Shown: in pieces, positions 4,364-51,600 of the stretch | How the letters are laid out: every line of letters starts with the position of its first letter | Numbering within the stretch: the first letter of the stretch is position 1 | NCBI RefSeq assembly: GCF_038443385.1 | Contig: NZ_CP151726.1 | Span: 2,914,001 to 2,978,000, forward strand | Direction: 5' to 3' | DNA from: Stieleria varia | GTDB taxonomy: Bacteria; Planctomycetota; Planctomycetia; Pirellulales; Pirellulaceae | DNA: 64,000 nt | The notes under the pieces: model-generated | Seen by the model: only the letters and a program-made list of their open reading frames with translations | Told to the model about the DNA's origin: nothing | The model's database searches: none | Program-made: the position numbers and the translations under genes

Positions 4364-5746
4364 TCAATTCGAGCAGTCGAGTGACCGCATGATTTTGGCG
4401 AATTCGTCTCGGTACTCGTGGTCGTCCTTGGGAAAGAGTTCGCCGAAGGTGGCTTGGTCCGCGGCGCCTTGTTGGAATCTGCGTTTGGGAAAGACTGGCA
4501 TGTCCACGCCCGTGATCTGCTTCACGCCGCTTGCCACGATATCGCCTTTGAGTGCGTAGAGTCGTTCGTGGTCCCAATCGGTCAAGTCCACGAACGGGAT
4601 CGCCTCGGCGACTTCGATCACATCAGGCAACGCGTAAGGACTGAACCCGGCAAAGCCAAACTTTGTCGCCGGCGCGCTGGTGCGAATGTGCCCGCGACTT
4701 TGCCCGCCGCTGTACACCAGCGAATGCTTGACCGCGTCCACTCCCCAGCCTTCCTGGTACAGCATGCGGTTGCCCAGCACGCTGCGGATGGTCAGCTCTG
4801 GGTTGTCTTCGATGGGATAGTCTTTCAAGTTTTCGTCACCGCCGTCGCCGTCGATCAAGTAGCGCCAGTCGGGATAGCGGTGGCGGATTTCGCGGATCAA
4901 CGTCAGTGCCATCGTTGCGGACTGAACGTCCAGCGGTTTGTAGTCTTCGATCACCGCGATCGAGTCACGCCAGGAAACGCGGTCGCGTGGGACCTGGATG
5001 ACTTCCAACAGCATCTCCAAGTTCACCGCTTTGAGAAACTCAGCGGCTTGAACGCTGTCGCTCGGATTGCCGTCGACCGCCAACGTGAAGGCTTTGACAC
5101 GAGCGGAAGACTGGCCGCGGCGACGCAGCAAGAAATCCAAGACAACGAGCACACTGCCGCTGTCGATGCCACCAGAAAAGAGAACACCGATCGGTTCGTT
5201 GTCGGGCAAGCGTTCCAGCCACCGGTCGATCGACTCGGCAAGTTTACCGATGTAGGCAGCGCCGATGGCTTCGATTGACGCGGGCAAGCGATTGCGTTGG
5301 GGAGCAAAGAACCGGGTGAGTGTGGGATTGGGGTCTGGGCAGCCCACCAGTTGGAGTTCCAGCAAGTGGTGCGCGGGCACCATTCGGGTGTAGGAGGGCT
5401 GGAACTGGTCCGCGAGTCCCTCAAGTTTCAGTTGTTGGTGGATTTCGTCCATGCGTTCGGCCACGATCAACGCGGGGCCTTCGGCGCGTTTGGCCAAAAA
5501 ATACCGCATGGGACGGCCGATGGATCTGGCCATCCGCACGGTCTTTCCGGACTGCTGGCAGATCGCAAACTGGCCGCCGATCTGGCGAATGGCCGCGACG
5601 TCGCCATCGCGGACTGCCTGCTCGGCTCGCTCTTGGGTGGTGTCCAACAGAATATTCCCCGCTGGATCGAGCAAATTGACGACTCGGTCGATCAGGGCGG
5701 GTTGCTGGCCTTGGAAGGATGCGGGTGGGAGGCTGGGGGTTTGCAT
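4364..5746 (-). CDS. Asparagine-synthase-like ATP-pyrophosphatase protein with degenerate N-terminal amidotransferase domain
   Basis: 460 residues from ATG 5746, chosen because AGGAG lies 8 nt upstream; a TTG at 5767 would add seven residues. Residues 191-196 are SGGIDS, the pyrophosphate-binding loop of asparagine synthetases and relatives, and DGDGGDEN (~ residue 297) matches their second conserved acidic motif. Before this, residues ~50-105 resemble the second half of a class II glutamine-amidotransferase domain, but the catalytic N-terminal cysteine half is absent, so glutaminase activity is unlikely. The protein probably adenylates a carboxylate and joins it to an amine or ammonia. The divergent neighbour is an acyl-AMP ligase/oxoamine synthase fusion, so a role in modifying the same product is possible but unproven. 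Confidence 0.75.
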   Translation of the reverse strand: MQTPSLPPASFQGQQPALIDRVVNLLDPAGNILLDTTQERAEQAVRDGDVAAIRQIGGQFAICQQSGKTVRMARSIGRPMRYFLAKRAEGPALIVAERMDEIHQQLKLEGLADQFQPSYTRMVPAHHLLELQLVGCPDPNPTLTRFFAPQRNRLPASIEAIGAAYIGKLAESIDRWLERLPDNEPIGVLFSGGIDSGSVLVVLDFLLRRRGQSSARVKAFTLAVDGNPSDSVQAAEFLKAVNLEMLLEVIQVPRDRVSWRDSIAVIEDYKPLDVQSATMALTLIREIRHRYPDWRYLIDGDGGDENLKDYPIEDNPELTIRSVLGNRMLYQEGWGVDAVKHSLVYSGGQSRGHIRTSAPATKFGFAGFSPYALPDVIEVAEAIPFVDLTDWDHERLYALKGDIVASGVKQITGVDMPVFPKRRFQQGAADQATFGELFPKDDHEYRDEFAKIMRSLDCSN

Positions 5747-5934
5747 GGTAGGACTCCTGCCGCACAATGGGAGGCTTGAGAAAACACGTCATCGCTGGGA
5801 AAGACTCCGTTTTATCCTGTTTGGAGCCGATCGGCGAGTATCGTGGATCGGGGAGGCGTGACTCAATCGAATTGTTCGCTATCCTTAGCAGTTTGGATAA
5901 GACAGGTAAATTCGTAAGGCCGATGATCGGATGG

Positions 5935-6177: not shown

Positions 6178-9100
6178 GTGGATTTTCACCAGTTTTTCGG
6201 CAACGAGTCACCACCGAGTGACCATTACGTCTCCGTTCTCGAGCATTGGGCGGAGCATCGTCCTGATTCGATTGCGTTCGGGTTCACCGACGTGGAGTCG
6301 ACGGATGACTCGTTGACTTACGAGAAGTTGTGGCAAGAGGTCCGTGGCTTGGCGGGTTATCTGCAGGGACGATGCCGGGTCCGCCGCGGCGACCGCGTGT
6401 TGTTGATCTACCCGCCGGGATTGGATTTTGTCGTTGGTTTCTTGGCGTGTCACGCGGCCGGTGCCGTTGCGGTTCCCGCGTTTCCACCGCGACGCAATCG
6501 CAAGGCGTCCCGGATTCGTTCGATCGTGGTGGATGCGGAAGCCAAATGGGCGTTGACGACGACGGACGTGGTGGAGCGTTTGTCGGGACATGGTTGGCAC
6601 GAGGATTTGGTCGGCGTTCAGTTGTTGGGCACCGACGATCAGACTTGCCGAGACCAGTCGCGTTGGAGACGGCCGGAGCTGAGTGGCGATTCGCTGGCCG
6701 TGTTGCAGTACACATCGGGTTCCACGGGAACGCCCAAGGGAGTGATGCTGACCCAGCAGAACTTGATCGCCAACAGCCAACTGATCATGCACGGTTTTCA
6801 AGTCGAACCGGATACGATCGGATGCACGTGGTTGCCCACGTATCACGACATGGGGTTGGTCGGCGGTTTGTTGATGCCGCTGTACATCGGACGGACGAAC
6901 ATGATGATGAGTCCGATGACTTTCCTGCAACGTCCGGCGCGATGGTTGCAAGCGATCTCGAAATACAAAGTCACTGTCAGCGGCGGCCCCAACTTTGCCT
7001 ATCAGCTTTGCGTCGACAAGATCAGCGACGAAGAAATGGAGGGCGTCGATCTGTCATCCTTGCAGATTGCGTTCAACGGTGCCGAGCCGATTCGCGTCAA
7101 CACCTTGGACACGTTCTGTGAGCGATTTGCTCCCTACGGATTCAATCGGCAAGCGTTCTTGCCATGTTACGGGATGGCCGAGACGACTCTGATCATCACC
7201 GGCGGTCCAAAGGAAACGCGTCCCGTGGTCGAGTCGTTTGACGGACCGCAACTGGACCAAAGACGTGTCGTACACGTCGATGCACAGCAAGCCGGTACAC
7301 AACAAACCGGTGTGCGATCGCTGGTGGGCTGCGGTCGTGTCTTACCGAACGAAACGGTGTTGATCGTCGATCCGGATACGTGCGACGTTTTGCAAGAGGA
7401 TCAGATCGGAGAGATTTGGGTTCAAAGTCCATCCGTCGGCGTGGGGTACTACCAGCGGGCCAGTGCGACTCAGCGCACGTTCCACGCCAGGACGTCCGCC
7501 GGCGAGGGGCCGTTCTTGCGCACCGGCGACTTGGGTTTCATGTACGACGGGCAACTGTACATCTCCGGTCGGTTGAAGGACATGATCATCGTCCGTGGTG
7601 TGAATCGTTACCCGCAGGACATCGAAGAGACCGTCGAGCGTGCCAGCAGCATGGTGCAAGCCGGTGCGGTCGGTGCGTTTGCAATGGAGCATGACGGTCG
7701 CGAACAACTCGCGATCGTTGCCGAAACGGTCCGTGAGCGAAACGTCGACTGGGACGCACACATTCAAGCCATCCGGCGCGCGGTCACCAGTGAACACGAA
7801 CTGCCGCCCGATGCGGTCTATCTCGTTCGCAATAGCAGCGTCCCCAAGACCAGCAGCGGCAAGATCCAGCGTCACGCATGCTTGCACGCGGTTCGCGATG
7901 GCGACTTGAAATTGACGGCCAAGTGGGTGCGTTGGGAAGAATCCGCGGGTTCACGCTCTGCGGTGGCTGAGGGTGTCGGCATGCCGATGATGCAAGCCGC
8001 CGCCGCAGGAGGTCAAGCCGCAAAGCTCTCCGAAGCCGACGTGAATCCACGCGTCGTCGCTGCGGTTCAATACCACGTCCGCGCCGTGGCCGGTGAACGC
8101 GCCCAACGCCTGAGCTTGGACACCAACATCGTGTTGGACTTGGGGCTGGATTCACTGGAACGGCTAGAGATCGCACGGAATCTGGAGCGAACCTTCGGCG
8201 GACGTTTTCCCGAACAAGTCTTGGATGAGATCGAAACGATCGGCCAAACCGCGCTTGCCATCGAACGTTACTTGCCGCCTGGAGGCGAAGCCCGCGCTGA
8301 TGCGTTGTTGGACGGATCCGTGGTCATTGAGAGTTCCACGGGAACGGACACAAGTGGCAAGCGAAACGGCGCCGTCGCGCCGCCACGGCGGGTCGATGTG
8401 GTCGAGCCGGAATTCAGTGTCGAACAGTTCGCCGAGTACCGTCGTTTGAAAACAACGATGCAACAGATGGCGATGACTGGTGTCCCGAACCCCTATTTTA
8501 CCGTCCACGAATCCATCGTCCGCGACACCACCGTGATCGATGGCAAAGAACTCATCAGCTTTGCCAGTTACAACTATTTGGGGTTGAGCGGTCATCCGGC
8601 GGTCACTCAAGCGGCTGCGGACGCGGTGAAGAAATACGGCACGAGTGTGTCAGCCAGTCGGTTGGTTTCCGGTGAAAAACCGATTCACGGTGAGTTGGAG
8701 CGAAAGATCGCCGAGTGGATCGGCGTGGACAATTCGATCTTGATGGTCGGTGGTCACGCGACCAACGAAACCACGATCGGGCATCTGGTCGGACCGGACG
8801 ACTTGATCATGCACGACGCGTTGTCCCACAACAGCATTGTGCAGGGGGCGTTGTTGTCCGGTGCCAAACGTCGCCCGTTCCCGCACAATGATTTTGAATC
8901 GCTCGATCGCACCTTGACTGAAGTGCGTTCCCAGTACCGTCGCGTGTTGATCATCGTCGAAGGCGTTTACAGCATGGACGGCGATTTTTCCAATGTGCCC
9001 GCGTTTGCCGAAGTCAAAAAACGCCACAAGGCGATGTTGATGGTGGACGAGGCCCATAGTTTTGGAACGATGGGCAAGACCGGCCGAGGCATGGCTGAAC

Positions 9101-9627
9101 ACTTCGGGATGGACGCTCGGGATGTCGACATCTGGATGGGCACGTTGAGCAAATCCGGTGCGTCGTGTGGTGGATACATCGCAGGCAGCAACGCGTTGAT
9201 CGAATTGCTGCGGTACACCGCCCCCGGGTTCGTTTTCAGTGTCGGCATGCCGCCGGCTCAAGTCGCAGCGGCGTTGGCGGCGATTCAGACGTTGGAGGCC
9301 GAACCGGATCGCGTGGAGCGACTGAGGGAACGAAGCCATCTGTTCCTGACGTTGTGCCAGGAAGCCGGATTGGACACGGGAGACAGTTGCGGCACGCCGG
9401 TGATCCCGGTGATCACGGGCAACTCGATGGTCGCATTGAGGCTGTCCAACCGATTGAAGGCCGACGGGATCAACGTTCAGCCGATCCTGTATCCGGCCGT
9501 GGACGAATCTGCGGCCCGGTTGAGATTCTTTATGACCTGTGAGCACTCCGAAGAGCAAATCCGATTCACGGTCGAGCGGACGGCCGCCCACATGGCCGAT
9601 TTGGGATTTCAGAAAACGCTCGCTTGA
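6178..9627 (+). CDS. Fatty acyl-AMP ligase - acyl carrier protein - alpha-oxoamine synthase fusion
   Basis: 1149 residues from GTG 6178; an in-frame stop at 6172 rules out a longer start. Residues ~15-590 are a fatty acyl-AMP ligase: YTSGSTGTPKGVMLT (~178-192), WLPTYHDMGLVGG, FNGAEPIR and YGMAETTL are typical of that family rather than of acyl-CoA ligases. Residues ~620-700 are an acyl carrier protein with Ser659 in DLGLDSLERLEI as the phosphopantetheine site. Residues ~770-1145 are a PLP enzyme of the alpha-oxoamine synthase family (serine palmitoyltransferase, AONS, KBL, CqsA): VDEAHSFG with Asp957 and His960, and TLSKSGASCGG with Lys992 as Schiff-base lysine. The chain should activate a fatty acid, load it on its own carrier and condense it with an amino acid, releasing CO2, to give an amino-ketone. 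In Caulobacter the equivalent serine palmitoyltransferase, carrier and acyl-ACP synthetase are separate proteins. The amino acid is not determinable by eye. Confidence 0.88.
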   Translation: MDFHQFFGNESPPSDHYVSVLEHWAEHRPDSIAFGFTDVESTDDSLTYEKLWQEVRGLAGYLQGRCRVRRGDRVLLIYPPGLDFVVGFLACHAAGAVAVPAFPPRRNRKASRIRSIVVDAEAKWALTTTDVVERLSGHGWHEDLVGVQLLGTDDQTCRDQSRWRRPELSGDSLAVLQYTSGSTGTPKGVMLTQQNLIANSQLIMHGFQVEPDTIGCTWLPTYHDMGLVGGLLMPLYIGRTNMMMSPMTFLQRPARWLQAISKYKVTVSGGPNFAYQLCVDKISDEEMEGVDLSSLQIAFNGAEPIRVNTLDTFCERFAPYGFNRQAFLPCYGMAETTLIITGGPKETRPVVESFDGPQLDQRRVVHVDAQQAGTQQTGVRSLVGCGRVLPNETVLIVDPDTCDVLQEDQIGEIWVQSPSVGVGYYQRASATQRTFHARTSAGEGPFLRTGDLGFMYDGQLYISGRLKDMIIVRGVNRYPQDIEETVERASSMVQAGAVGAFAMEHDGREQLAIVAETVRERNVDWDAHIQAIRRAVTSEHELPPDAVYLVRNSSVPKTSSGKIQRHACLHAVRDGDLKLTAKWVRWEESAGSRSAVAEGVGMPMMQAAAAGGQAAKLSEADVNPRVVAAVQYHVRAVAGERAQRLSLDTNIVLDLGLDSLERLEIARNLERTFGGRFPEQVLDEIETIGQTALAIERYLPPGGEARADALLDGSVVIESSTGTDTSGKRNGAVAPPRRVDVVEPEFSVEQFAEYRRLKTTMQQMAMTGVPNPYFTVHESIVRDTTVIDGKELISFASYNYLGLSGHPAVTQAAADAVKKYGTSVSASRLVSGEKPIHGELERKIAEWIGVDNSILMVGGHATNETTIGHLVGPDDLIMHDALSHNSIVQGALLSGAKRRPFPHNDFESLDRTLTEVRSQYRRVLIIVEGVYSMDGDFSNVPAFAEVKKRHKAMLMVDEAHSFGTMGKTGRGMAEHFGMDARDVDIWMGTLSKSGASCGGYIAGSNALIELLRYTAPGFVFSVGMPPAQVAAALAAIQTLEAEPDRVERLRERSHLFLTLCQEAGLDTGDSCGTPVIPVITGNSMVALRLSNRLKADGINVQPILYPAVDESAARLRFFMTCEHSEEQIRFTVERTAAHMADLGFQKTLA

Positions 9628-10772: not shown

Positions 10773-11318
10773 ATGCGGACACTGTTGACCGAGCAGGAAT
10801 TGAACGAGGGCGTCGATCGCCTTGCAAAGGAAATCGACTCGCATTACGGAGCCGACCGTCCGTTGACTTTGATAGCAGTCATGACGGGCAGCTTGGTCCT
10901 GTTTGCGGATTTGATTCGGCGGCTCTCCATGCCGCAGCGGATCGGCGTGATCCAAGCCGCCAGCTACCGCGGGGGGATGCGGTCGGGTGAATTGACGGTC
11001 GATGCAGCGATGTTGATCGACGTGGCCAACCGAAACGTCTTGCTCGTCGATGACATCTTTGACACCGGCAAGACGCTCGATCACTTGACCGTGTTGATCC
11101 GGGATTTGGGGGCAAAGAGCGTGAAGTCGGCTGTACTGCTGCACAAGCAACGTGAGCATGTGGTGGATCTGCGGCCCGATTTCGCAGCCTTTCAGATTCC
11201 CGATGAATTCGTGGTCGGCTACGGATTGGACTACTTGGACATGTACCGAAACTTGCCCTATCTCGGCGTCCTGGAGCCGGCCGAAATCCAAGCCACAGCG
11301 GACCAAGCGGCATCGTGA
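10773..11318 (+). CDS. hpt: Hypoxanthine phosphoribosyltransferase
   Basis: 181 residues, the normal length for the family. It converts hypoxanthine (and often guanine) plus PRPP to IMP or GMP in purine salvage, in the cytoplasm. VLLVDDIFDTGKTL (~ residues 90-103) is the PRPP-binding signature with its acidic pair; LIAVMTGSLVLFADLIR near residue 35 and PDEFVVGYGLDY near 145 are the other conserved parts. The stop TGA 11316-11318 overlaps the GTG of the downstream glycosyltransferase, so the three genes hpt-GT-GT are probably one transcript. The upstream 240-bp spacer carries no recognised element. Confidence 0.92.
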   Translation: MRTLLTEQELNEGVDRLAKEIDSHYGADRPLTLIAVMTGSLVLFADLIRRLSMPQRIGVIQAASYRGGMRSGELTVDAAMLIDVANRNVLLVDDIFDTGKTLDHLTVLIRDLGAKSVKSAVLLHKQREHVVDLRPDFAAFQIPDEFVVGYGLDYLDMYRNLPYLGVLEPAEIQATADQAAS

Positions 11319-12682
11319 CTCGTGCGATGAGGGTATTGATCGTCACGCATCATTTTTGGCCGCACGGCTCCATCGATGTGGCCGGGCATGCGATGGAACT
11401 TGCCACTGGCCTGCATCGACGTGGCGTGCATGTCGAAGTTCTGACGCCAAAATTCTCCAGTCGTTGGGTCGAGCAACTAACGTTTCGCGAAATCGCCGTC
11501 CATCGACCGACGTCCATTGCAAAGAACGAATGGGCGTCCAATCGTTATGCCCGTCAGATGACACAGTGGATTCGTGATCGAGGCCAATCGTTTGACGTGA
11601 TCGTTTGCCAAGGCGGCCGAGACGAAGCACCCGCGGTCGTGGATGCCGCCCGTCGATTGGGCATCCCCAGCGTGATCCGGATCACGGGATTTGGAACCGC
11701 CAGCGACGTGGCTTGGTGGCAAACCGGACGTTGGGCGCGACGATGCATGACGGCTGCGAAGTCTGCGGACTGTGTGATCACGAGCCATGCCGGACAACAT
11801 CGACAGTTGCTCGGTGAAGGATTCCTGGATAGCAAGATTCAGCGTGTCGGGATCTCGGTCGGCGCCTCGCCAGCGATCACGAACAAGCAAAAGCAGCAAG
11901 TGCGTTTCGCGCTTGGCGGAATCAACAGCGACCTGTTTGCGACCATGGACACGCCGGTCGCCTTGGCCGTTTGTCCGCTGGATCGCTCGTTTCCATCTAG
12001 CCGTTTCGCGAGCGCAATGATGTCGGTTGTTTCGCGAAACCCCGCGATCAAGGTTTGGTTGGTCGGTGATGGCTCCGGTCGCGAAGCCACGCATCGAATG
12101 TTGAAAAGCGACGGTGTGCGTCACGCGGTTGCGATACCGGGCTCGTTCAGCAATTTGGAAGACGTCTACGCGGCCGCCGACATGTACATTCACGCCAGCG
12201 ATTACGGTGTGGATCATCTGCTGCCTGCGGCCATCTCCGCCCGACTGCCGTTGGTGCTCCGAGACAGCCCACTGATGCGAGAATTCATCGATGGCTCCAT
12301 GAAACAGGAAACCTCTGGCCAGTTCGACACATCCGCATCGTTATCAACACAGCATGCTCCAGTGGCGTGGTTTGATGAACGACCAGCAAGCCTACAAACC
12401 GCCAGCCAACGAGCACATGATTCCCCTGGGACACTGGGTCGTGCAGTGGAAAGCATCCTCAAGAACCGCGAGCAAGCAGACGAGAACGCCGAACAGTTGC
12501 GGCTAAAGATGCAACGTCAATGGTCGTCCAATGATTCGTTGGATCAATACATCAGCCTCTTTGGCCGTTTGTCGGGTACCGTTATCAAGTCGTCCGAAGG
12601 CATCAAGTCATCCGAAGACAGGCAGTCATCAATCCACGGCGACCGCATGCAGAACAGATCGAGATCGGAGTCAGGACAATGA
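11315..12682 (+). CDS. Glycosyltransferase, GT4-like
   Basis: 455 residues from GTG 11315, overlapping the hpt stop; ATG 11327 (MRVLIVTHHFWPHGSIDVAG) is an alternative and begins exactly at the first strand of the fold. The N-terminal half has the GT-B acceptor-domain pattern; the C-terminal half holds KVWLVGDGSGREATHRML and AADMYIHASDYGVDHLLPAA, the place where GT4 enzymes bind the nucleotide-sugar, with a somewhat unusual acidic motif. The last ~120 residues are polar and probably disordered, an addition beyond the usual ~370-400. The acceptor and sugar are unknown. The stop overlaps the next gene (ATGA). Confidence 0.78.
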   Translation: MTRAMRVLIVTHHFWPHGSIDVAGHAMELATGLHRRGVHVEVLTPKFSSRWVEQLTFREIAVHRPTSIAKNEWASNRYARQMTQWIRDRGQSFDVIVCQGGRDEAPAVVDAARRLGIPSVIRITGFGTASDVAWWQTGRWARRCMTAAKSADCVITSHAGQHRQLLGEGFLDSKIQRVGISVGASPAITNKQKQQVRFALGGINSDLFATMDTPVALAVCPLDRSFPSSRFASAMMSVVSRNPAIKVWLVGDGSGREATHRMLKSDGVRHAVAIPGSFSNLEDVYAAADMYIHASDYGVDHLLPAAISARLPLVLRDSPLMREFIDGSMKQETSGQFDTSASLSTQHAPVAWFDERPASLQTASQRAHDSPGTLGRAVESILKNREQADENAEQLRLKMQRQWSSNDSLDQYISLFGRLSGTVIKSSEGIKSSEDRQSSIHGDRMQNRSRSESGQ

Positions 12683-13773
12683 CGATTCGACTGGCGCTCG
12701 TGATCCCGACGATGGATCGAGGCGGCGCGGAAAAACAACTGTGCTTACTCGCCGAAAATCTGCCTCGCGATGAATTCGATGTTCGCGTGTTCTTGCTCAC
12801 CCGAGAAGGCCCGCTTGTCGATCGACTTCGCGACGCGGGTGTTTCCGTGACGCTGATCGGCAAACGATTCAAAGCAGACCCGACGGCGTTGTTTCGTTTG
12901 CGTCGAGAGCTGAAATCATTCGCACCGGACATCGTTCACACGTGGATCTTTGCCGCCAACAGTTTCGGTCGCTTGGCCGCCAAGTGGGCCGGCGTCCCGA
13001 CGATCCTTGCCAGCGAGCGTTGCGTCGATCCATGGAAGTCGCGAATGCATTTCATGGTCGACCGATGGTTGGCGAAATCCACCGCTGCGATCACTACCAA
13101 CAGTGAAGGCGTCCGTGATTTTTATGCGCAGCACGGGATCGATCGAGAACTATTTCGCGTGATTCCCAATGGGATCGAGCCTCGCCGTGGTGTGGCCGTT
13201 GGACGCGACGAAGTACGGCGGAGATTGCAGGTCGAGCCGGAACGCAAACTGATCTTGGCCGTCGGCCGACTGTGGCCCCAGAAACGGTATCGCGACCTCA
13301 TTTGGGCCGCCGAGTTGCTCGGGACGCTTCGTCTGGATACGACACTTGTCATCGTCGGTGACGGACCGCAGAAAGGAGAACTGTTGCGGTTTCGCGATTC
13401 GGTCACTTGTCCACAACATGTTCGATTTGCGGGGCCCAGGACGGATGTTGCCGAGTTGCTCAACGGCGCGGATCTTTTTTGGATCGGCAGCGAATACGAA
13501 GGCCAGAGCAATGCGGTGATCGAAGCGATGCAGGCGGGCGTGCCCGTCATCGGTACCGACATACCGGGCAACCGAGATCTGATCGTGCCCGGCGTCACGG
13601 GGCAGATCGTCGAGCTGGGTGACCGCGCGGGATTCGCCCGCCAGTCCCAGGAATTGCTGGAGAATCCCGCGATGGCGGCCCGATTCGGGCAAGCAGCGAT
13701 GGAACGGATCAATCGTGATTTCACGATTTCCGCCATGGTGGAGGCACACATCGGGCTCTATCGCGAGCGTTGA
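12679..13773 (+). CDS. Glycosyltransferase family 4 protein
   Basis: 364 residues, ATG 12679 overlapping the previous stop by four bases. It is a typical GT-B retaining glycosyltransferase: IPTMDRGGAEKQLCLLAENL at the start is the acceptor-side glycine motif, LILAVGRLWPQKRYRDLIWA opens the donor domain, and GSEYEGQSNAVIEAMQAGVP is the E-x7-E nucleotide-sugar motif. It has no membrane segment and probably acts at the inner face of the cytoplasmic membrane on a lipid-linked or polysaccharide acceptor. It is translationally coupled to the preceding glycosyltransferase, suggesting consecutive sugar additions in one glycan. Confidence 0.9.
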   Translation: MTIRLALVIPTMDRGGAEKQLCLLAENLPRDEFDVRVFLLTREGPLVDRLRDAGVSVTLIGKRFKADPTALFRLRRELKSFAPDIVHTWIFAANSFGRLAAKWAGVPTILASERCVDPWKSRMHFMVDRWLAKSTAAITTNSEGVRDFYAQHGIDRELFRVIPNGIEPRRGVAVGRDEVRRRLQVEPERKLILAVGRLWPQKRYRDLIWAAELLGTLRLDTTLVIVGDGPQKGELLRFRDSVTCPQHVRFAGPRTDVAELLNGADLFWIGSEYEGQSNAVIEAMQAGVPVIGTDIPGNRDLIVPGVTGQIVELGDRAGFARQSQELLENPAMAARFGQAAMERINRDFTISAMVEAHIGLYRER

Positions 13774-13784
13774 AACGGAACATT

Positions 13785-13825
13785 GTCGCTCGACTTTCCA
13801 AGTCGATAGCGTGCCCCGCCGAACG
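13785..13825 (+). repeat. Dispersed repeat B (CGACTTTCCAAGTCGATAGC), copy 1, in a 382-bp spacer
   Basis: The core CGACTTTCCAAGTCGATAGC contains a 6-bp stem (CGACTT/AAGTCG) with a 3-nt loop and is followed by GTGCCCCGCC. Other copies are at 28908-28967 (one partial and one full), 33209-33240 (inverted) and 43461-43490. This copy starts 11 bp after the glycosyltransferase stop. The rest of 13774-14155 shows only a weak GCCGG-TTTTG-CCGGC hairpin near 13892 and no gene. Confidence 0.7.
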
Positions 13826-14155
13826 TATTGTCAATCTCAAACGCATCCCGCATCGACCGGCCCACTGTGCTCACCAGGGCGTGGCAAAATAGCCGGTTTT
13901 GCCGGCATTCTCTGATAAACAGTTCGGCTCGTAACGATCACGCCAACGTCGATTCGGCTAAAAACTGGGCAAACACCCATTTTGGCTCAATTGCAAGTTG
14001 AGTCAGCCGCCCACACAGATAACATCGGAATCGTGCCTGTCGCACACGGCGGCCAATTGCGGCGGATTCCCATCGAATGTCGATCCCAGATCCGCAGCCA
14101 TTTGTCGCCCGCCTCTGAGAATCATCGGAACCGTCACCCCCCAGCCATCTGATTC

Positions 14156-14713
14156 ATGGACATGAGAGAAAGTAGCCGACAACTGATCGACGAGGTCGAA
14201 TTGCTGTTGGCCAATGCACGGTTACGTGATGAGTTGGAGCCGTATCGAGATGACTCCATCGATACGTCTCACAAACGCATGTCGCTGCAGGCCGAGAATG
14301 AATACCTCGCATCAATGTTGGCTTGGGAGCGTGCACCCGCGCTGCCGATCGCGGAATGGTTTTCGCCTCGCTTGGAATTGACTCCGCCGGAGTCACTCTC
14401 GGACGACCAGCTTCCTGTCGTCTTGCATCAGACCATCGCAAAGCTGTTCAGCAAACGGATCATCTTGCGTTGCACGGATCACCTGTCCGATCGCGAGCTG
14501 TACAAAATCATCTTCCGAGACATTTTGACCTGTTGCGAAAAGAAAGTGGAGGTGCCCGAGAAAGCGCTGGAGTGGCTGTGCGTGGAAGACACCGAGACGT
14601 GGCTTCGATACTACGCCGATGCGGTCGAGCGTCGCCGATACCAGGAAGAACACGACGTGGAGTTGCCGCCGAGCGAAACACCGCCGTTCCGACGGCAGTT
14701 GCCCGGCAACTGA
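14156..14713 (+). CDS. Hypothetical protein, helical, cytoplasmic
   Basis: 185 residues; family not recognised. It opens with an amphipathic helix (SRQLIDEVELLLANARLRDE) and continues as a charged, mostly helical protein with a central segment PIAEWFSPRLELTPPESLSD and DHLSDRELYKIIFRDILTCC; a Cys-Cys pair lies near residue 122. There is no signal peptide or membrane segment. The normal composition, codon use and compact fold-like pattern support a real gene. ATG 14156 is the first start; ATG 14162 is two codons in. It converges with the rhodanese gene. Confidence 0.65.
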   Translation: MDMRESSRQLIDEVELLLANARLRDELEPYRDDSIDTSHKRMSLQAENEYLASMLAWERAPALPIAEWFSPRLELTPPESLSDDQLPVVLHQTIAKLFSKRIILRCTDHLSDRELYKIIFRDILTCCEKKVEVPEKALEWLCVEDTETWLRYYADAVERRRYQEEHDVELPPSETPPFRRQLPGN

Positions 14714-14735
14714 TCACGATTTAATCCTACCACTG

Positions 14736-15074
14736 CTAGTAACGCGGGACGGAATCGTCGATCTCGAGACTCCACGCGTCTATCCCGCCGGCCATGTTCT
14801 GCACATTTGTGTATCCTGCCTGACGCAAGGCCTGAGTGACGTGGAGACTGCGTCCGCCGTGATGACAATGCACCACGATGTGCCGATCCTTGTGCTCCTC
14901 CAACTCGCCGATCCGTTCACCCAATTCGCCCATCGGTAGCAGCATGCTGCCATCGATTCGAGCGGTTTCGTATTCATCGGGCTGTCGGACATCGAGCAAC
15001 AAAAAATCATCGCCGTCGGATCGCAACTTGGCAACGGCGCGGACATCGATTTCTAGCGGTACAGAATCGGACAT
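14736..15074 (-). CDS. Rhodanese-like sulfurtransferase domain protein
   Basis: 112 residues from ATG 15074 (MSDSVPLEIDVRAVAKLRSD). The frame is open for 52 more codons upstream but those do not resemble the family, so the short start is preferred. It is a single rhodanese domain: LLLDVRQPDEYETARIDGS carries the conserved Asp-Arg-x-x-x-Glu, and VVHCHHGGRSLHV holds the active-site cysteine that takes up persulfide. Single-domain rhodaneses move sulfur or bind thiols in the cytoplasm; the acceptor is not known. Confidence 0.88.
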   Translation of the reverse strand: MSDSVPLEIDVRAVAKLRSDGDDFLLLDVRQPDEYETARIDGSMLLPMGELGERIGELEEHKDRHIVVHCHHGGRSLHVTQALRQAGYTNVQNMAGGIDAWSLEIDDSVPRY

Positions 15075-15305
15075 GGTCGGCACTGGTTGTGAGAGGAATC
15101 TATCGTCGGTGTGACAGACATCCATCATACGATGATCGTTGGCACGATGGCAGCACACAAAACCGTTCTCGGCACACGATTCGCATTGGCGAGACAGGAA
15201 TGCGGCTGTGCGAGCGAAAATAGCGTGCATGGTGCGGAAATGGCAACCACAATGGGGCCAGCACGCTAAACCGCGCAGGGATTACCTGTCCACAAGAGAT
15301 TTCAG

Positions 15306-18300
15306 ATGACAGACGGCCAAGACCAGAAAATCGATTTTGAAACCGTACGCAAGAATGAGATCGCCGAGATTGCGAAGCGGCGACGGGAAGCCAATGTCTA
15401 TGCCGACAAGAACTCTCCGACGGAGAGCCACGCGCCGGAAAGCGATCTCGTCGGGCTGGCGCTTTCGGGCGGCGGTGTCCGCTCCGCCAGTTTCAACCTC
15501 GGATTCATCCAGTCTCTTTACGAAAACGGTGTCCTGCGTCACATCGATTACATGGCCACGGTCTCTGGCGGTGGTTACGTCGGCAGCAGTCTGTCTTCCT
15601 TGGCATTGCATCCCGACACGGAGTTTGACTGGAAATCGGACGCCTTTGACGCTGATGCCGACGCCGACGCGTCGGATTCGACACACCAGCCGGAGCGAAA
15701 GTTTCCATTGTCGCCGCGTGGCGATGGTCGGCAGCCGCCGCGTGTGCTGGAGCTGATTCATGGCGGTCAGTATCTGCGAAAGCCGCTGATCTTTCTCAAT
15801 CGCTACTTGGTCGGCGTCCTGCTCACCAACGTGGTCGCACTCAGTTTCGTCTTTGCCCTCGCCGCGTTGGCCGCTTGGATGTTTCGATGCCTGGACTACA
15901 CCTGGTCGATCAACTGGTTGTACGCTTTGGGATTCCAAGGAGACATCGCCCGCGCTTTCTTTCCAATGACACTGTTCTTTGGCCTCTGGTTGGTGATGTG
16001 GGGGATCTCGTATTGGCGGCGGGGGGCTCAGGCAGAGGGAGCATTCGCGCGCTGGTTCATGACGTTGACGATCGCATCCCTGCTGCTCGCTGGCGCGACG
16101 CTGCTGGGAACCGGCGATGTCAGCTTGACTCATCTGCGGGACAACTACGGCATCGAACCACCGTCGGATGCGGTACGGTTTCTCGGAGGCGAACTGAAAA
16201 CGTACTTCATCATCGGGCTGGTCATCGCTTTGATCCCGTATCTGAGGATCAAGGATCTGATTCGCAGCGGCACGCGGCCTCGTACGGCCGTGGAAGGCTG
16301 GGTTTTTGGGATTGCCAGCCGGGCGTTGCTCTATGGCATCCCACTGCTTGTATTCGGTTGGCTCGCCCGCGAGAACATTTCGCACTTCAACGAAAACCGG
16401 GTGGTTCATCGCTACGGTCAAACCATCGATACACAGTATGACTTTGTGCCCCTGGAGTTTCAGAACTGGTCCAAGACTTGGCAGGAGATCGAATTGCAGG
16501 CCACGCAGCTCAGTACTTCGGAGGAAAACGGCAGGTTTGCAGTCAGCCGCCGGCTATGGAACTCCGTTGATCACGAGCAGGTCGCAAAATCCATTGAGGT
16601 GCTGGAAAAGATTTCCAAGTATGACCGCGAAACCTCCATGTTCAGACGTTGGCTGTTGTTCACCGGTTACACCATCACACGGCAACCCAATGCGGTCACG
16701 GACCAGTTCGTCCGCCGCGAAGCATACTTGCATCTACGCACCGAGATCTGCCAACAACTGACCCAGTCGGTGTTGGTCGATCCACAGTTCTACAAAGAAT
16801 TCGCGTCGGCCGAAGAAGCGTTGAAGATCGAGTTGGCAAATCTGACCGATCAACAGCGAGAGATGCGACTGAACAATATCGAAGCGTTGAGTGTCGAAGC
16901 GCAGCATTTGGAAAAGAAAGTCGAGAACGTCTCCGACGGTGAATTGACTTTTGCCAACTGGGTTTCGTTGCGTAATGAGACCTTGCGCTTGCTGGATCGG
17001 GCAACGGAAAACGAAATCACCGAAAGCACGGTTCAACTGAAGCAGCAGCTCGACAGCTTGATGAATCTGCAAGATGGCAAGTTCGCGAGTTTGGAAGTGG
17101 AAGTCAAGAACATCAATTGGCAATTGATGCTCAACTACTGGGGCGACAGGTTTGCGCCCAAGTCAACCGTTTTTGCGATGGTCTGCTTGCCGGCCGATCA
17201 AGCCACGCGATGGACCTGGTTCATGTGGTCCTTCGGTTTGTTTCTGCTATCGGCGTGCGTGGTCAACATGAACTCGACTTCGCTGCACGGATTCTATCGC
17301 AACATGTTGTCCAAGATGTGGATCACGGACTGTCCAGGTATCGGACGCGCGATTCCACTGGCGAGATTGGAGACGGCCGCGCGTGGAGCACCCTACCATA
17401 TCATCGCTGCAACGGTTCACCTATTGGGTCGTCGCCGTAGCACCGATCGCTCGACCACCGATAGTTTTATTTTTTCACAGTGCTACTGCGGCTCCAATCG
17501 GACCGGCTATGTTCGGACGGAGTCGTACATGCAGGGCCGTTTTGACCTGTCCAACGCAATGGCACTTTCGGGAGCCGCAGTCAGTCCCACCCAAGTCCAC
17601 AATCCACTGCTGGCGGTCTTGTTGATGGTGTCCAACTCACGACTGGGGCAGTGGCTGCCCAATCCCGGTCACAAGGCACTCGTCAAAGGATTGTTCTATC
17701 GGATCGTGTCGTGGTTACCCCCTGTCCCCATTCGTCTGATCGTCGGCGCAATGCAAGACGCGGAGAACAGGAATTACTGCTTTGTCTCCGATGGCGGTCA
17801 TCACGAGAACCTTGCGTTGGAACCGTTGCTGCTGAGACGATGCCGATTGATCATCGCATCGGATGTGACAGGTGACATCACCTACGAATTCAGAGACTTC
17901 ATCCGATTGATCCGCCGAATGCGGTTCGAACATGGGATCCGCATTGTTGACGTCGATGGCTTGGATTGCGACCTGGGGTTGGCTGCGTTGACACCCAAAC
18001 GGCTTCACGCCGACAGCGAAGTCTCGGAGTTGGGCCTGGAAAAACTATCCAGCCGGCTTTCCAAAACCAATCTCGCCCAGTCCCATTACTTCGTTCTCCG
18101 CATCCTTTACCCGGCTGATGGACCGACCGGCTCCCCACAGGAGGGCTTTCTGATCTACGTCAAACCCAACTTCACTGGCGATGAAGCCGCGGATCTGACA
18201 CGATATCAGCTTGAGAATCCGGCGTTCCCTCACGATCCGACCAGCGACCAGTTTTACGACCCGCAGAAATTTGAATCCTATCGGCAGCTCGGATACCACA

Positions 18301-18530
18301 TCGGAAAGACGTTGCATGCCGAACAGTTCAAGGACCCCGCGGGGGGACGGAAGTGCCGGCCGCTGAGGAAATGGTCCCCCAGTGACGGCTCGACACCAGG
18401 TGAACAGTCGCAACAGTGCGAGTCGCCACGGGATTCTCACAGCGACGTTCGCAAACCGAAAGCGTCGAACGACAGACCCGATGACGCCGCGTCAACGACG
18501 AATACAGAAAGCAAAAGGCCACCAAGGTGA
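15306..18530 (+). CDS. Membrane patatin-like phospholipase
   Basis: 1074 residues. A patatin lipase fold is split by a long membrane and coiled-coil insertion. LALSGGGVRSASFNLGFIQS gives the oxyanion loop (Gly55-57, Arg59); Ser87 in TVSGGGYVG is the expected nucleophile, although the usual G-x-S-x-G has Thr at its first position; Asp829 in VSDGGHHENLALEPLLLRR completes the dyad. About five hydrophobic segments fall at residues ~160-370 and one near 640, with a predicted coiled coil between (~480-590). The last ~90 residues are polar. It probably cleaves acyl lipids at the membrane. Its stop overlaps the start of a DUF2061 gene (GTGA). Confidence 0.82.
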   Translation: MTDGQDQKIDFETVRKNEIAEIAKRRREANVYADKNSPTESHAPESDLVGLALSGGGVRSASFNLGFIQSLYENGVLRHIDYMATVSGGGYVGSSLSSLALHPDTEFDWKSDAFDADADADASDSTHQPERKFPLSPRGDGRQPPRVLELIHGGQYLRKPLIFLNRYLVGVLLTNVVALSFVFALAALAAWMFRCLDYTWSINWLYALGFQGDIARAFFPMTLFFGLWLVMWGISYWRRGAQAEGAFARWFMTLTIASLLLAGATLLGTGDVSLTHLRDNYGIEPPSDAVRFLGGELKTYFIIGLVIALIPYLRIKDLIRSGTRPRTAVEGWVFGIASRALLYGIPLLVFGWLARENISHFNENRVVHRYGQTIDTQYDFVPLEFQNWSKTWQEIELQATQLSTSEENGRFAVSRRLWNSVDHEQVAKSIEVLEKISKYDRETSMFRRWLLFTGYTITRQPNAVTDQFVRREAYLHLRTEICQQLTQSVLVDPQFYKEFASAEEALKIELANLTDQQREMRLNNIEALSVEAQHLEKKVENVSDGELTFANWVSLRNETLRLLDRATENEITESTVQLKQQLDSLMNLQDGKFASLEVEVKNINWQLMLNYWGDRFAPKSTVFAMVCLPADQATRWTWFMWSFGLFLLSACVVNMNSTSLHGFYRNMLSKMWITDCPGIGRAIPLARLETAARGAPYHIIAATVHLLGRRRSTDRSTTDSFIFSQCYCGSNRTGYVRTESYMQGRFDLSNAMALSGAAVSPTQVHNPLLAVLLMVSNSRLGQWLPNPGHKALVKGLFYRIVSWLPPVPIRLIVGAMQDAENRNYCFVSDGGHHENLALEPLLLRRCRLIIASDVTGDITYEFRDFIRLIRRMRFEHGIRIVDVDGLDCDLGLAALTPKRLHADSEVSELGLEKLSSRLSKTNLAQSHYFVLRILYPADGPTGSPQEGFLIYVKPNFTGDEAADLTRYQLENPAFPHDPTSDQFYDPQKFESYRQLGYHIGKTLHAEQFKDPAGGRKCRPLRKWSPSDGSTPGEQSQQCESPRDSHSDVRKPKASNDRPDDAASTTNTESKRPPR

Positions 18531-45664: not shown

Positions 45665-48600
45665 CTAAAAGAGCGAGTTTTCAAGCAATTCCTCGATGAC
45701 CAGGGATTCTTCTTCGTCCAATTCCGTAAAGAAATCGTCCACTGTCTCGGTGAAGGTCGATAGCGGAGACTGAACGCGTCCTTCGCGAAGTTGGTTGACG
45801 ATCAGTAGAGCATCGAGCGCGGAGACTCGCCCATCACGATTGACGTCTCGCGGGTCTCGCAGGGTATCCACCACGGTCTCGCCTTCGGCCCGCAGCTCCG
45901 CCAATCCATTGATCACCTGCAATGCATCCAACGCGCTGATCACCTGGTCCTTGTTCACGTCCATCGGATGGCTGGCCATCAATGGGGCGACGTTGACGGC
46001 GTTGGTGAAGCTGAAATTCACCGTCTGGACGACATCCATTCGCCCGGCAAACTCGGACGTATTGCCATTGTTGTCTGTCACCGTCGCGGTCAAGTAATCC
46101 AACGCGTAATTCAGTTCGTTGACGTCGATTGTCAAATCCACGCTTGCGGTTCCCGCATTCAAGTCGACTTCGACGAACGTGCTGGATCCCAGGTACTGCA
46201 ATCCATGACCGTTTTCGTCGGCGACGAAGAACTCGACGGTCAATGGATACGCAGAATTCTCCACCGCCGAATCCACCGTGAAGTCCAGATGCAGCTCTGC
46301 AGTCGTCGCACCGGTCGATGTCAGTGTGGCATCGGATAGCGGCGTGATCGAGTTCTGCAGATGATTCGGACCGTCGTCGACATCGCCCGCGTCGTTGGGA
46401 TCAAGTCCGACCGGACCAAGGTCGATCCCGTTGACGTTGCCGGTCATGCTGTTCTGCGTGATCTGGTTGTTGATGCTGTCGGCATAGGCTCGCACCGCAG
46501 CACGCCAGTTGTTGGCAATCACATTGTCAGGACCGACTTGGTTGTTCGATGCTCCTCCATAGATCTCGACGCCCACGGCCAATCCAAAGATCGGATCGTC
46601 GATGTCGGGGCTGGTGCCGACGTAGTTGCCCAGCACAACGTTGTCCATCGCTTCTGCCGTTCCCAGACTGATGCCGGTGGTCGCACCCGTGATCCAGTTG
46701 GCGTCGCTCTGGGTCGTGCCGCCGACGACATTTCCTGATGCCTTTAACCAGATCGCTCGCTGCCCACCTTGCAAGACGCCGCTGCCGTCGGCAGTGAAGC
46801 CGACTTTGTTTCCCGTGATCGTGTTGCCGGAGGTCAACGCACCAAAGATAAAGATCTGGCTGGCTGTGTTGGCAGTGATCACGTTGTTGCTGATCGTGTT
46901 ACCCGACGCGTGGTTTTGCAAATGAACGCCGTGCTTGGCATTGGGCAGTGCGGCATTCCCAGCGGCGTTCAAACCGATGATGTTGTTTTGGATGGTCGTG
47001 TCGACCGAACCGTTCAGGAACACGCCCGAGTTGCCGTTGCCAGAGACCACGTTGCCTTGACCTGCCTCTGGTCCACCGATCTGCGTGCCGCTGGCCTCGC
47101 CGACGTAGATTCCGAATCCGCCATTTCCCACTGCAGCGTATCCGGACGAGTCCACGCCGATGTAGTTGCCGAAGATCTGATTGTCATTGGCGGTCGGTCC
47201 GCCGATCACGATCCCCGATTGGGAGTTGCCGGAAATCGTGTTGTTTTGGATCAAGTTCTCCGGTGAAGCGATGTAGATTCCGTAGGATGAATTCCCGATC
47301 GCTTGGCTGATGCCGGGGCCGGTTGGCTGCTTCACTCCGAGTCGGTTGTTGATGATCGAGTTGTTACTGGAAAGGGGACCGGACACTCGAATTCCCGACG
47401 AAGCATTGCCGTAGGCTTCGTTGTCGCGAATGACCACATCGGTCGTATCGGTCAAGTAGATCCCGTGTTGTCCATTGTAGGCAAACTCACTGTTGGTGAT
47501 CTCGACGCCGCTGGCACCTTGCACATCAATGCCGTCGCGTGGAAACGACGTGATCAACAGCGAGTCGACAAACACGTCGTCCGTTCGAACCCGCAGACCG
47601 TCAGCGTAGATCCCCGGAATCGACGTTCCCCTGATCTCGATCGCAGGAGTAACTCCGGCTCCCAATTGCGAGCCTCCCAGAATAGAAATCTTTTGAGTGA
47701 TCTCGGGCAACTGGACAACGGGGGTGATGACAAATCGCGAACTCGCGGCGTCCAGCTGCGAGAGTGGAATGTCGAACAGAATCACATGATCGACATAGTC
47801 CGGGCTGGCGTTGACTTCCTGCAGCACAGCTCGCAATGTGGTTCGACCTTGTGCGTCTGCCGCAATGCCGTCTCCGATGTTGGCATCCAACGCGTCGGCA
47901 GTCGTGTTGACGATGAAGGTTTCGGTACCAGAGACGATCGTGTCCGCGGTTGCGACCGAGAACGCAGTCGCGGAATCCTCGATACGAACGGAAATGGTGT
48001 ATTCTCCAGGCGCCGCATAAAGATGGCTTGTCTCAATGCTGCGTGTGTACGGATCGATCACGATCGGCTCGTACACGCCCGGCGATTCTCCCCAAGCAAC
48101 CTCGACTTGATGAACATCATTCAAATCCAGATCGGTGAAGTCCACCGACAGGACAACCGGATCGGCGGAGGAGGTCGACTCAGCGGTCCCTGCGGACGCA
48201 GTGATCGTGTCGATCACTGGATCGTCATTGGTTCCTTCGATCAGAATGGAAACAAAGACCGTCGCACTGTCATCGAGCGATACGACTTCAAAAACTTCAT
48301 CCAGTGTCTCTCCGACGCCAAGGGATTGGACCGCCGAATCATCCAACGTGTATTGCCAGGCTCCTGACGCGCTCAGCTGGAACGTTCCATAATCACCTGC
48401 GGTATCTGATTGAGGAATGAATTGGCTTTCGCTGTCATCCGGATCATCAATATCCAATTGTCCCAACGCGATCCCGACTTGGTCTTCGATCACTGTTGCG
48501 TCGAAATCGCCGGTGATATCAGGGATGTTGTTGAGCCCCGCGATTTCGATCACGACCTCCAACGAGGCGGAAGCGTCAAGCGATTCCACGACAAAAACAT

Positions 48601-51600
48601 CGGACACAACGTCGGTCGATCGCAGGGTTTGTGATGCCCCGTTGTCGACCGTGTATGACCAATCACCGTTTGCCGTGATGCTGAAACTGCCGTAGCTGCC
48701 GCTTATCAACTGTGGGACAAGGGCGGCTTCGTTTTCATCCACATCCGTCACGGTCAATGATCCGGTGACTGGGTCTGTGGCGTCCTCGTCGGTCGCCCCG
48801 GTGGTGTCGCCGCTGATCGTGGCCAAATCGTTGACGCCTGTGATCTGGATGTCGACGGTCACGATTCCAGATCCATCCAGTGAACTGACATCGAATGAAT
48901 CCGTCACGATGTCGCCCGCATTCAGAGCATAAACGGCCAGCGGATCCATGGTGTAACTCCATGCACCCGACTCCGTGACACTGAATGTGCCGTAAACACC
49001 TGCGGTGTCCGTCTGGGCGACCGCCAGCGATTCACCTTCATCGGCATCGTTGATGAGCAGCGTTCCCGTCAAGTCCGTCGTGGCGTCTTCGTTGGTCGAT
49101 CCTGAAACATCGCCAGTGATTTCCGCAATGTCGTTGTTTCCGCTGATCGTGATCACGACGTCGGCCGTGGTCCCGCCGTCGGCGGAAACGATTTGGAACG
49201 TGTCGCTAAACTCGTCGCCCGCATTGAATGCTTGCGTGGACGTAGTGTCCACCGTGTACGTCCAGTTGCCACCGGCGTCGATGCTGAAACTGCCGTAATC
49301 ACCCAGCACAGGACCGTCCGCTTGGAATCCACTTTCCCCGCTATCGGGATCGGTCACCGTCGCAGTACCCGTCACCGCCGACGTGGCATCTTCGTCCGCG
49401 TTTCCACTGAGTTCCCCGGTGATCGCAGCATCATCGTTGTTGCCCACGATGTTGATTTCAACCGCCTGAGTCGTTCCACCGTCCAGTGAAGTTACCGTGA
49501 ACTCATCCGTCACACTGCTGCCGGCAGACAGACTTTGAACGCTTGCGTTGTCGAGCGTGTAAGTCCAGTTACCAGACTCATCGACGCTGAAGGAACCATA
49601 GAGCCCCGCCGTCGATGTCTGGCTGATCAGGCCTGATTCATTTTCATCGGCATCCGTCACGACAAGTGTGCCGGTCACCGGCGCCGCGTTGTCTTCGTCG
49701 GTCTCACCGCTGGCATCACCCGTGATCGCTGCCACATCGTTCAACCCGAGCACCGTCACCGTCACGGTGTTGGTGTCCGTGCCGTCAATGGATTGGATTT
49801 CAAACTCCTCGGCGAATTCATCGCCCTCGTTGAGCGACTGAGCCGACGCGTTGTCGATCGTGTAAGTCCAGTTTCCCGTCGCGGCGATGCTAAAGGTTCC
49901 GTAGCTGCCAGCCACATCCACTTGGGCGACGACCAAGTTGTCACCCAAATCCGGATCGTTCACGTTGACCTGACCGGCAACAGCCTCAGTCGCATCCTCG
50001 CTGATTTCTCCTCTCAAATCTCCAACGATCTCGGCTGGATCGTCGAGCCCAGCGATGGTGATCTCAACAAGAGTGCTGGTGACACCGTCCAGCGAGACGA
50101 CTTCGAACGAGTCGGTCGCAAGGGATTCCGGGACAAGTAGTTGAGTCTTGGTGGTGTCAACTTGATACGACCAGTTGCCTGACGAATCGACGCTGAAGTT
50201 TCCGTAGGTGCCCGCTGTGTCGGTTTGTGAAATGAAGGATTCTTGTCCGCTATCAAGGTCCACGATGGTCAATGCTCCCGTCACCGGGACGACCGCGTCC
50301 TCGTCAGTGTTGCCTGTCACATCTCCGCCGACGACGGCAATGTCATTGACGCCGAACACGTTCACCGTGACGTAGCTGGTCGCCGTTTCTCCTTCGTTAT
50401 CAACAATCTGGTACGAAATCGTGATCGGTGACAAGCTGCCCAATGGCAAGTGGTCAAAGACACCTGTCGGATCGTAGCGGAAGTTTCCGTCACCCAGATC
50501 GGTCAAAGTGCCCACCAGCGGCGAATCCGCGGTGGTCAACGAAGCCACAATCGTACCGTCGGGATCGTAATCGACTCCGTTTCCGTTGTCGGCCAATACG
50601 TTGAACTCCACCGGATTGTCTTCGTCGGTGATGATCGAATCCGCAACTGCAACGGGGGCCGAGTTGAATCGGAAGTTCGCGATCGAATCGATCTCGGCTT
50701 GACTCAGATGGACGGCGGTTTGTCCGGTCAGTTCGGTCTCGGAAAGCAAAGCACCGGCTGCCGCAACCGCGTCGGCACGTGTATCCGCAGCTACCGTCAA
50801 AGTCATCAAACGCAAGATCACTCCGGCTGGCACGGTCAGGTCGTAAGTCCACACCACGTTGTCCCCGACGACTTGCACGTCCGTGGGCGTCAACCCACTC
50901 TTTCCGTGGACAAAATGCACCAAAGCTGGCGAGCCGCTGCCGTCCGCATCATCGGTGCCGAACCACTGATCGGTTGTCTCGACATCAGTGTCTCCGTCGG
51001 ACGATGCAAACACAGTCGTCTCGGAGTCACTACCAAGATTCCCCAGAATCGTGACTGTCGTCGTGATGTCCGCTCCCGTTGAATTGGCAAACGATTCGAT
51101 CGTACGGGCAAAACTCTCTGCACCGCTCGTTGGCACGGTGATCTCTCGAGAGACGGTCAATCCGTCGATCATTTGCGAACCCGTGACTACCGTCGCTCCC
51201 GAATCAGCAAAGACAGATGCACCTGTGGGTTCAAAATCGGTCGAGCCCACGCGCAGCCGATTCAGCCCGTCAAACGCGTTCCCGCTGCCTTGAACCAACT
51301 GGCCGGCATGCAATCCACGGATCTGCGGATCAAAGGACATGCCACTGACCGAAATCAACTCCGCCGTCGACGGCTCTAGACCGCTCAGCAACCCGTAAAC
51401 GGCACCGGGAATGTATGCACTGACCAACAGGTCCGATGTTCCATCAAGATTAAAGTCATCGACGGCGATCGCATCGAACGCCAAATAGACATCGCTTTCG
51501 CTCGGGCTCGTCAAGTAGGCGAAATCAAAGTTGCCCGTTCCATCTCCATACAGAACACTGATCGCGTCTCCACTGCCCGTATGAGCGACCGCGAGATCGG

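Follow-up and report, generated by a model that had tools for sequence, protein, structure and literature searches.

A one-chain acyl ligase, carrier protein and alpha-oxoamine synthase of Stieleria varia as a proposed replacement for serine palmitoyltransferase in Pirellulaceae

A stretch of 64,000 nucleotides from Stieleria varia (contig NZ_CP151726.1, positions 2,914,001 to 2,978,000; hereafter the window), whose genome is a single contig of 9.72 Mb, contains an unbroken frame for a fatty acyl-AMP ligase (FAAL), a carrier protein and an alpha-oxoamine synthase (AOS) in one chain (Table 1). An earlier note on this DNA had described the three activities in a single open frame with their key residues present, and both statements were borne out: all four Pfam domains of the fusion protein pass their cut-offs, and T179, S180, G181, T183, D658, S659 and K992 are invariant across 31 aligned sequences, the window included. 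Such a three-domain gene is far above chance expectation.

Table 1. Features of the fusion gene, its upstream neighbour and the putative partner genes in the Stieleria varia genome (G000:C1, own-genome coordinates; all others, window coordinates)
Feature	Position	Strand	Details
Whole gene, FAAL - carrier protein - AOS	6178-9627	+	1,149 aa, GTG start
FAAL core, AMP-binding (PF00501), aa 21-425	6238..7452	+	Pfam 239.7 bits
FAAL motif TSGSTGTPKG, aa 179-188	6712-6741	+	
FAAL C-terminal subdomain, AMP-dom_DIP2-like (PF23024), aa 468-580	7579..7917	+	Pfam 40.0 bits
Carrier protein, PP-binding (PF00550), aa 634-692	8077..8253	+	41.2 bits, cut-off 20.8
Phosphopantetheine Ser659, in LGLDSLE	8152-8154	+	
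AOS domain, Aminotran_1_2, aa 791-1133	8548..9576	+	Pfam 158 bits
PLP (pyridoxal phosphate) lysine Lys992, in GTLSKS	9151-9153	+	
Asn_synthase-domain gene, divergent, upstream of fusion	4364..5767	-	Pfam
Ceramide N-acyltransferase (CerS) homologue	G000:C1:3047542-3048747		222 bits, E 2.7e-65, 36% over 368/374 residues
CerR-like reductase candidate	G000:C1:2416124-2417074		94.6 bits, runner-up 46

The first domain is recognised as a FAAL by PF00501 and PF23024, both above cut-off, and by its best PDB matches, which are FAALs. The nearest entries, by sequence and by fold, are 7r7e/f/g, the Synechococcus olefin synthase FAAL, whose structures contain palmitoyl- and stearoyl-adenylate. The carrier protein is identified by its PP-binding domain with the invariant serine in a DSL motif, and two ACPS-family transferases encoded in the Stieleria varia genome could arm it. 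The third domain is a fold-type I PLP domain of the AOS superfamily, in which H884, K992 and R1116 are constant in all compared rows. A structure prediction, proposed earlier as a way to infer the amino-acid pocket, gave a weak model (mean pLDDT 71, pTM 0.50, the AOS domain partly below 50); only the FAAL fold match was therefore taken from it.

The fusion was compared at 37 loci, namely the window and 36 further loci from the same family (Pirellulaceae) or order, with open reading frames assigned by a greedy longest-frame caller. The gene was called in 36 of the 37; at L128 the caller picked an opposite-strand frame instead. End-to-end alignment with the window protein was obtained in 34 of the 36 called loci, and at L122 the called frame begins at query residue 112. 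In one family genome (L107:7814-11273) the chain lies in two overlapping frames, FAAL and carrier-AOS, which may reflect a real split or an assembly error. When 199 family genomes were surveyed with the AOS domain as query (E <= 1e-120), matches were found in 181 genomes, a figure that counts AOS-domain carriers and not proven whole fusions; they represent 65 of 68 genera and include 139 of the 144 genomes that are at least 90% complete and at most 5% contaminated. Among the matches listed, the frames are mostly about 1,100-1,340 aa long, the remaining ones being shorter or polyketide synthase (PKS) fusions of 2,560-2,650 aa. Of 294 genomes sampled across the phylum Planctomycetota, 11 have an AOS-domain match. 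Five of these belong to the order of the Pirellulaceae, all with a fused locus (window, L049, L050, L052 and L057); in the six outside it, the AOS stands alone or is part of a remote fusion or a PKS fusion.

Other fusions of this type of AOS were also seen. One-chain PKS-AOS proteins of 2,530-2,567 aa are encoded at L051:2419-10086, L053:3019-10722 and L055:2713-10305, that of L053 with the domain order KS-AT-DH-ER-KR-ACP-AOS; the L051 and L053 genomes are family members, each of which also has the FAAL fusion. On a Streptomyces anthocyanicus plasmid (L095:8308-13131), a 1,607-aa protein with an AOS of the fusion type (59% identity) adjoins an MMPL transporter gene.

None of the NCBIfam equivalog cut-offs is reached by the AOS domain of the fusion. 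Against the models for serine palmitoyltransferase (SPT) it scores 326, 289 and 221 bits, the cut-offs being 640, 500 and 670, whereas E. coli B Spt attains 599 on the SPT model with the cut-off of 500. Models for KBL / glycine C-acetyltransferase give 311 and 265 bits against cut-offs of 460 and 493, and identity as KBL was rejected on these scores and on tree placement. A tree of 61 rows, which corresponds to the one proposed in the earlier note except that CqsA was left out, as were ALAS, SulA and PfSgaB, places the domain within a 32-row branch (100/100) whose other AOSs are fused to a PKS, adjoin one or belong to capsule loci; the SPT branch (23 rows, 100/99) and the BioF and KBL rows lie elsewhere. 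By its sequence, the domain is thus assigned to the PKS-linked, SgaB/RkpG-like AOS branch. This branch is marked by Tyr798, Asn885, Gly1023 and Phe1118, with a few exceptions among its outer members, and His884 and Arg1116 are retained as in SPT.

An AOS search of the Stieleria varia genome returned three matches: the fusion, a PKS-linked AOS and a BioF-like AOS. A proteobacterial-type SPT was not found by this search, which would be able to detect one (about 200 bits). A second carrier-linked AOS, at about 5.58 Mb (L045:9475-10800 and 10866-17234, both on the minus strand), adjoins a KS-AT-DH-KR-ACP polyketide synthase, and its locus, which also has dehydrogenase, beta-lactamase-fold and HlyD genes, resembles the sgaAB/rkp loci.

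In E. coli BL21(DE3), yghO and the genes for a FAAL, an epimerase-like reductase, an acyl carrier protein (ACP) and spt are adjacent; the E. coli B genes have been named aca, aasR, epi, acpR and spt (PMC9386255). Queries for partner genes were taken from a K. michiganensis plasmid set that is ordered like the E. coli BL21(DE3) genes. One single N-acyltransferase homologue was found in the Stieleria varia genome (Table 1), so that the CerS of the bacterial ceramide pathway has a counterpart there. Since no Pfam or NCBIfam family covers this protein, its identity as an acyltransferase rests on sequence likeness and gene order. The homologue is present in 196 of the 199 family genomes (E <= 1e-40) and in 105 of the 294 phylum genomes (E <= 1e-30), and 16 sampled members of family f3 in the same class have neither the acyltransferase nor the AOS domain. 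The CerR-like match is regarded as a candidate, because the reductase superfamily is large. The N-acyltransferase was missed by the greedy caller in 13 of 53 loci (2 of 28 from the family or order, 11 of 25 others) and found in those by tblastn; the tblastn locus scan excluded L245-L257 (13 loci), in all of which the acyltransferase was called. A ketoacyl-synthase-like gene lies at most three genes from the homologue in 8 of 26 called family/order loci (e.g., L139:10518-11903), and one genome of the same order has the homologue in two tandem copies (L204:9008-11549).

Outside the order, 92 of the 100 sampled acyltransferase carriers also have a stand-alone SPT, and in 64 of these 92 genomes the two genes are no more than 2 kb apart. 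SPT was found at 19 of 25 fetched acyltransferase loci from outside the order, at 13 with a CerR-like gene in addition, the usual gene order being <reductase >SPT >acyltransferase. SPT was surveyed with a planctomycete SPT (L187) as query at E <= 1e-98, a threshold of about 330 bits; other planctomycete SPTs score at least 428 bits with this query, Sphingobacterium SPT 424 and other AOSs at most 313. SPT was matched in 97 of the 294 phylum genomes: both genes occur in 92 genomes, the acyltransferase without SPT in 13, SPT without the acyltransferase in 5 and neither in 184. Five of the 13 acyltransferase-only genomes are the fusion carriers of the order, so that every genome with both the acyltransferase and a fusion-type AOS is without SPT, and in none of the 294 genomes do SPT and a fusion-type AOS occur together. 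Likewise, no SPT-branch enzyme was found in the 199 family genomes at this threshold, which is blind to proteobacterial-type SPTs, and none was seen at 28 fetched family/order acyltransferase loci (15 and 26 of them covered by two overlapping scans). Six borderline matches from six family genomes (L231-L236; 331-351 bits, open frames of 533-585 aa) were rejected, as they make up a further AOS branch, separate from SPT.

Taken together, our results suggest, with somewhat better than even confidence, that the fusion by itself performs the entry step to a ceramide-like lipid, having replaced SPT and most likely acting on L-serine, and that the resulting 3-oxo-sphinganine is then N-acylated. The computed basis consists of the domains, the key residues, the family-wide presence, the AOS branch, the N-acyltransferase homologue and the negative search for an SPT-branch enzyme; from it we infer that loading occurs in cis, that L-serine is the substrate, and which product and later steps follow. 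It is comparative genomics that links the fusion to ceramide synthesis. The FAAL domain would convert a free long-chain fatty acid and ATP to acyl-AMP, and the acyl group would be passed in cis to the phosphopantetheine arm of the protein's own carrier domain. The PLP domain would then join an amino acid, L-serine being the likeliest, to the carrier-bound acyl group, giving 3-oxo-sphinganine with release of CO2. This product would be N-acylated by the separately encoded N-acyltransferase homologue and, as a last step, reduced by the CerR-like candidate; acylation before reduction is the order favoured in Caulobacter (PMC11087976). The one-chain enzyme would thereby do the work for which other Planctomycetota keep a stand-alone SPT alongside the N-acyltransferase.

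As the AOS domain lies outside the SPT branch, a functional replacement is proposed rather than a fusion of Caulobacter-type genes. The parallel with Caulobacter drawn in the earlier note accordingly holds for function, given the N-acyltransferase homologue in genome and family and no SPT-branch enzyme seen, and not for the descent of the AOS; of the products offered there, 3-keto-sphinganine is favoured. More tentatively, and at slightly less than even chances, ceramide-type lipids may be a core trait of the Pirellulaceae, in which the <reductase >SPT >N-acyltransferase locus would have shed its SPT and a FAAL-carrier-AOS chain from the PKS-linked branch would have taken over, channelling free fatty acids into long-chain bases without diffusible acyl-CoA or acyl-ACP. 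The novelty is the proposed SPT replacement and its genomic context, the architecture itself being already in print; among the open-licence PMC titles listed, none treats this protein as an SPT replacement, and FAAL-directed searches were fruitless. If the proposal is true, two exchangeable sphingolipid entry enzymes exist within one phylum, and surveys based on the SPT clade, such as that of the Black Sea with Spt-like proteins in 138 Planctomycetota metagenome-assembled genomes (PMC11334938), miss a widespread planctomycete family. The fusion would also offer one expressible polypeptide for the route from fatty acid and serine to a long-chain base, and the membranes of these planctomycetes could be tested directly for ceramide-like lipids.

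Several observations weigh against a role in ceramide synthesis. The fusion, the acyltransferase and the reductase candidate are unlinked in the Stieleria varia genome. Of 26 called family/order loci, only 3 (L210 and L246, which are one genus, and L216) have a CerR-like gene close to the acyltransferase, each time without SPT; at L217 and L249 the gene found in its vicinity is a weaker, epimerase-like match, with 45-55 bits to E. coli epi. Eighteen of the 199 family genomes have the acyltransferase and fall below the AOS threshold, and five of these are at least 90% complete. In the phylum sample, eight acyltransferase carriers have neither SPT nor a fusion-type AOS, and six carriers of a fusion-type AOS outside the order lack the acyltransferase; moreover, the co-occurrence of SPT and acyltransferase (Fisher p 6e-55) is uncorrected for relatedness. 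With the L187 query, proteobacterial SPTs score only 299-304 bits, so that such SPTs would escape the survey, and the planctomycete SPTs used here themselves score 527-594 against a curated cut-off of 640, so that branch and gene order are what identify them as SPT. The domain also departs from the SPT rows at sites around the active centre (3a2b Asn51 to Tyr798, Ala138 to Asn885, Ser/Ala274 to Gly1023 and Ser368 to Phe1118). Ser827 and Ser991 are common to SPT and the fusion, but they also occur in most BioF rows, and a serine preference therefore cannot be read from the residues; nor are the pocket sites decisive for naming the amino acid. For Stieleria mannarensis, the available text of PMC12254169 gives phosphatidylcholine, phosphatidylethanolamine and four unidentified polar lipids and names no sphingolipid. 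In the literature, the Black Sea survey calls AOSs outside the SPT clade likely not sphingolipid enzymes (PMC11334938), and a Nostoc study cautions that AOSs with SPT-like residues need not produce long-chain bases.

Likeness to known systems is partial in each case. Caulobacter crescentus and E. coli B likewise use an acyl-ACP synthetase (AasR), a dedicated carrier (AcpR) and an AOS (SPT) for the first step of ceramide synthesis (PMC9386255), and the N-acyltransferase partner of this system has the homologue in Stieleria varia. There, however, the three are separate proteins, whereas Stieleria varia has one chain with an AOS of another branch, 34% (AOS) and 32% (FAAL) identical to the E. coli B proteins. 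The same three-domain order is found in Blastopirellula marina, a member of the Pirellulaceae. Its protein A3ZWL3 was listed by Milano 2013 together with Microscilla marina A1ZVW4 under the A-CP-AOS (A-CP-PLP2) layout, with specificity, cluster type and product marked as unknown for A3ZWL3 (PMC3870968). In Pseudomonas fluorescens MYb115, PfSgaB, an AOS adjoining an iterative PKS, makes 3-ketodihydrosphinganines with an almost exclusive preference for L-serine, and PfSgaAB thus provides an example of a PKS-linked AOS with SPT activity (PMC12134224). In that system the chain is built by the PKS, whereas the FAAL of Stieleria varia would activate a ready-made fatty acid, within one chain. A Pseudomonas plasmid (L094) carries a PKS, an AOS and, five genes on, a short-chain dehydrogenase/reductase (SDR), with the locus-tag spacing of sgaA, sgaB and sgaC. 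The L094 AOS shares 55% identity with the window domain, the branch (100/100) and the marker residues, and is probably an SgaB homologue, likened to it by gene layout, as the PfSgaB sequence itself was outside the comparison. PigH and the Streptomyces A-CP-KS-AT-AOS chains also have a carrier-linked AOS, in some with an adenylation domain; unlike the fusion, PigH serves a pyrrole pigment, and KS-AT or tandem carriers are present in the chain (PMC3870968).

The alternative that survives best, which we nevertheless consider unlikely, is the same chemistry and N-acylation with another amino acid (alanine, glycine, cysteate or other), leading to a 1-deoxy-ceramide, a sulfonolipid or another amino lipid. 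It would fit the branch marker sites that differ from SPT, and use of other amino acids by Spt has been hypothesised by the authors of PMC11334938; yet PfSgaB takes L-serine almost to the exclusion of alanine and glycine (PMC12134224), and elsewhere in the phylum the apparent partner acyltransferase accompanies SPT-branch enzymes.

Improbable, in our judgement, is a role in making the lipid that anchors or carries a surface polysaccharide, as suggested for the rhizobial rkp loci with their PKS, AOS and SDR, although it would overlap with ceramide synthesis if the anchor were sphinganine-like. Related AOSs are found in Pseudomonas and Sinorhizobium capsule-type loci and, in one case, by Paraburkholderia polysaccharide genes; the S. 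meliloti pSymB copy, 51.8% identical to the AOS of the fusion, probably corresponds to RkpG, and the rkp-1 region is said to produce a capsule-export lipid carrier (PMC4881576). Two glycosyltransferase genes begin 1.7 kb downstream of the fusion. However, the AOS of the Rkp loci is PKS-fed and adjoins capsule genes, unlike the fusion, for which no lipid or polysaccharide gene is among the neighbours recurring in at least 4 of the 36 family/order loci, and the fusion is near-universal in the family, unlike a variable capsule locus.

A CqsA-like synthase of an alpha-amino or hydroxy ketone signal, the other product offered in the earlier note, shares the enzyme superfamily and is nonetheless very improbable, since the domain scores 163 bits against a cut-off of 428 on the autoinducer synthase model and CqsA structures in the PDB are remote (88 bits), a comparison by scores with CqsA outside the tree. 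Hardly credible is a biotin-type 8-amino-7-oxononanoate synthase joining pimeloyl and alanine: bioF is the best-scoring AOS model (358 bits), but the curated cut-off, 426, is not reached, a distinct BioF-like protein does better (405, itself slightly short of that cut-off), the AOS lies outside the BioF rows of the tree, the nearest solved relatives of the FAAL bind C16-C18 adenylates, and the bio operon that would have spoken for it is not in evidence, no biotin gene having been identified among the scanned neighbours in the window.

In the window, the flanking genes on both sides are oriented oppositely to the fusion, which therefore lies outside any operon there. The divergent Asn_synthase-domain gene is probably not part of the system. 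Neighbours recurring in at least 4 of the 36 fusion loci are a BBP7-type porin (10), EF-hand (8), AP_endonuc_2 (6), Asn-synthase-domain (4) and lumazine-binding (4) genes, and a neighbourhood or operon partner was rejected, as even the commonest, the porin, occurs in 10 of the 36 loci only. Elsewhere in the window, a 1,074-aa protein with a patatin domain at its N-terminus is encoded at 15306-18530 (plus strand), and a 4,604-aa protein with cadherin, FG-GAP, beta-helix and dockerin domains at 45665-59479 (minus strand).

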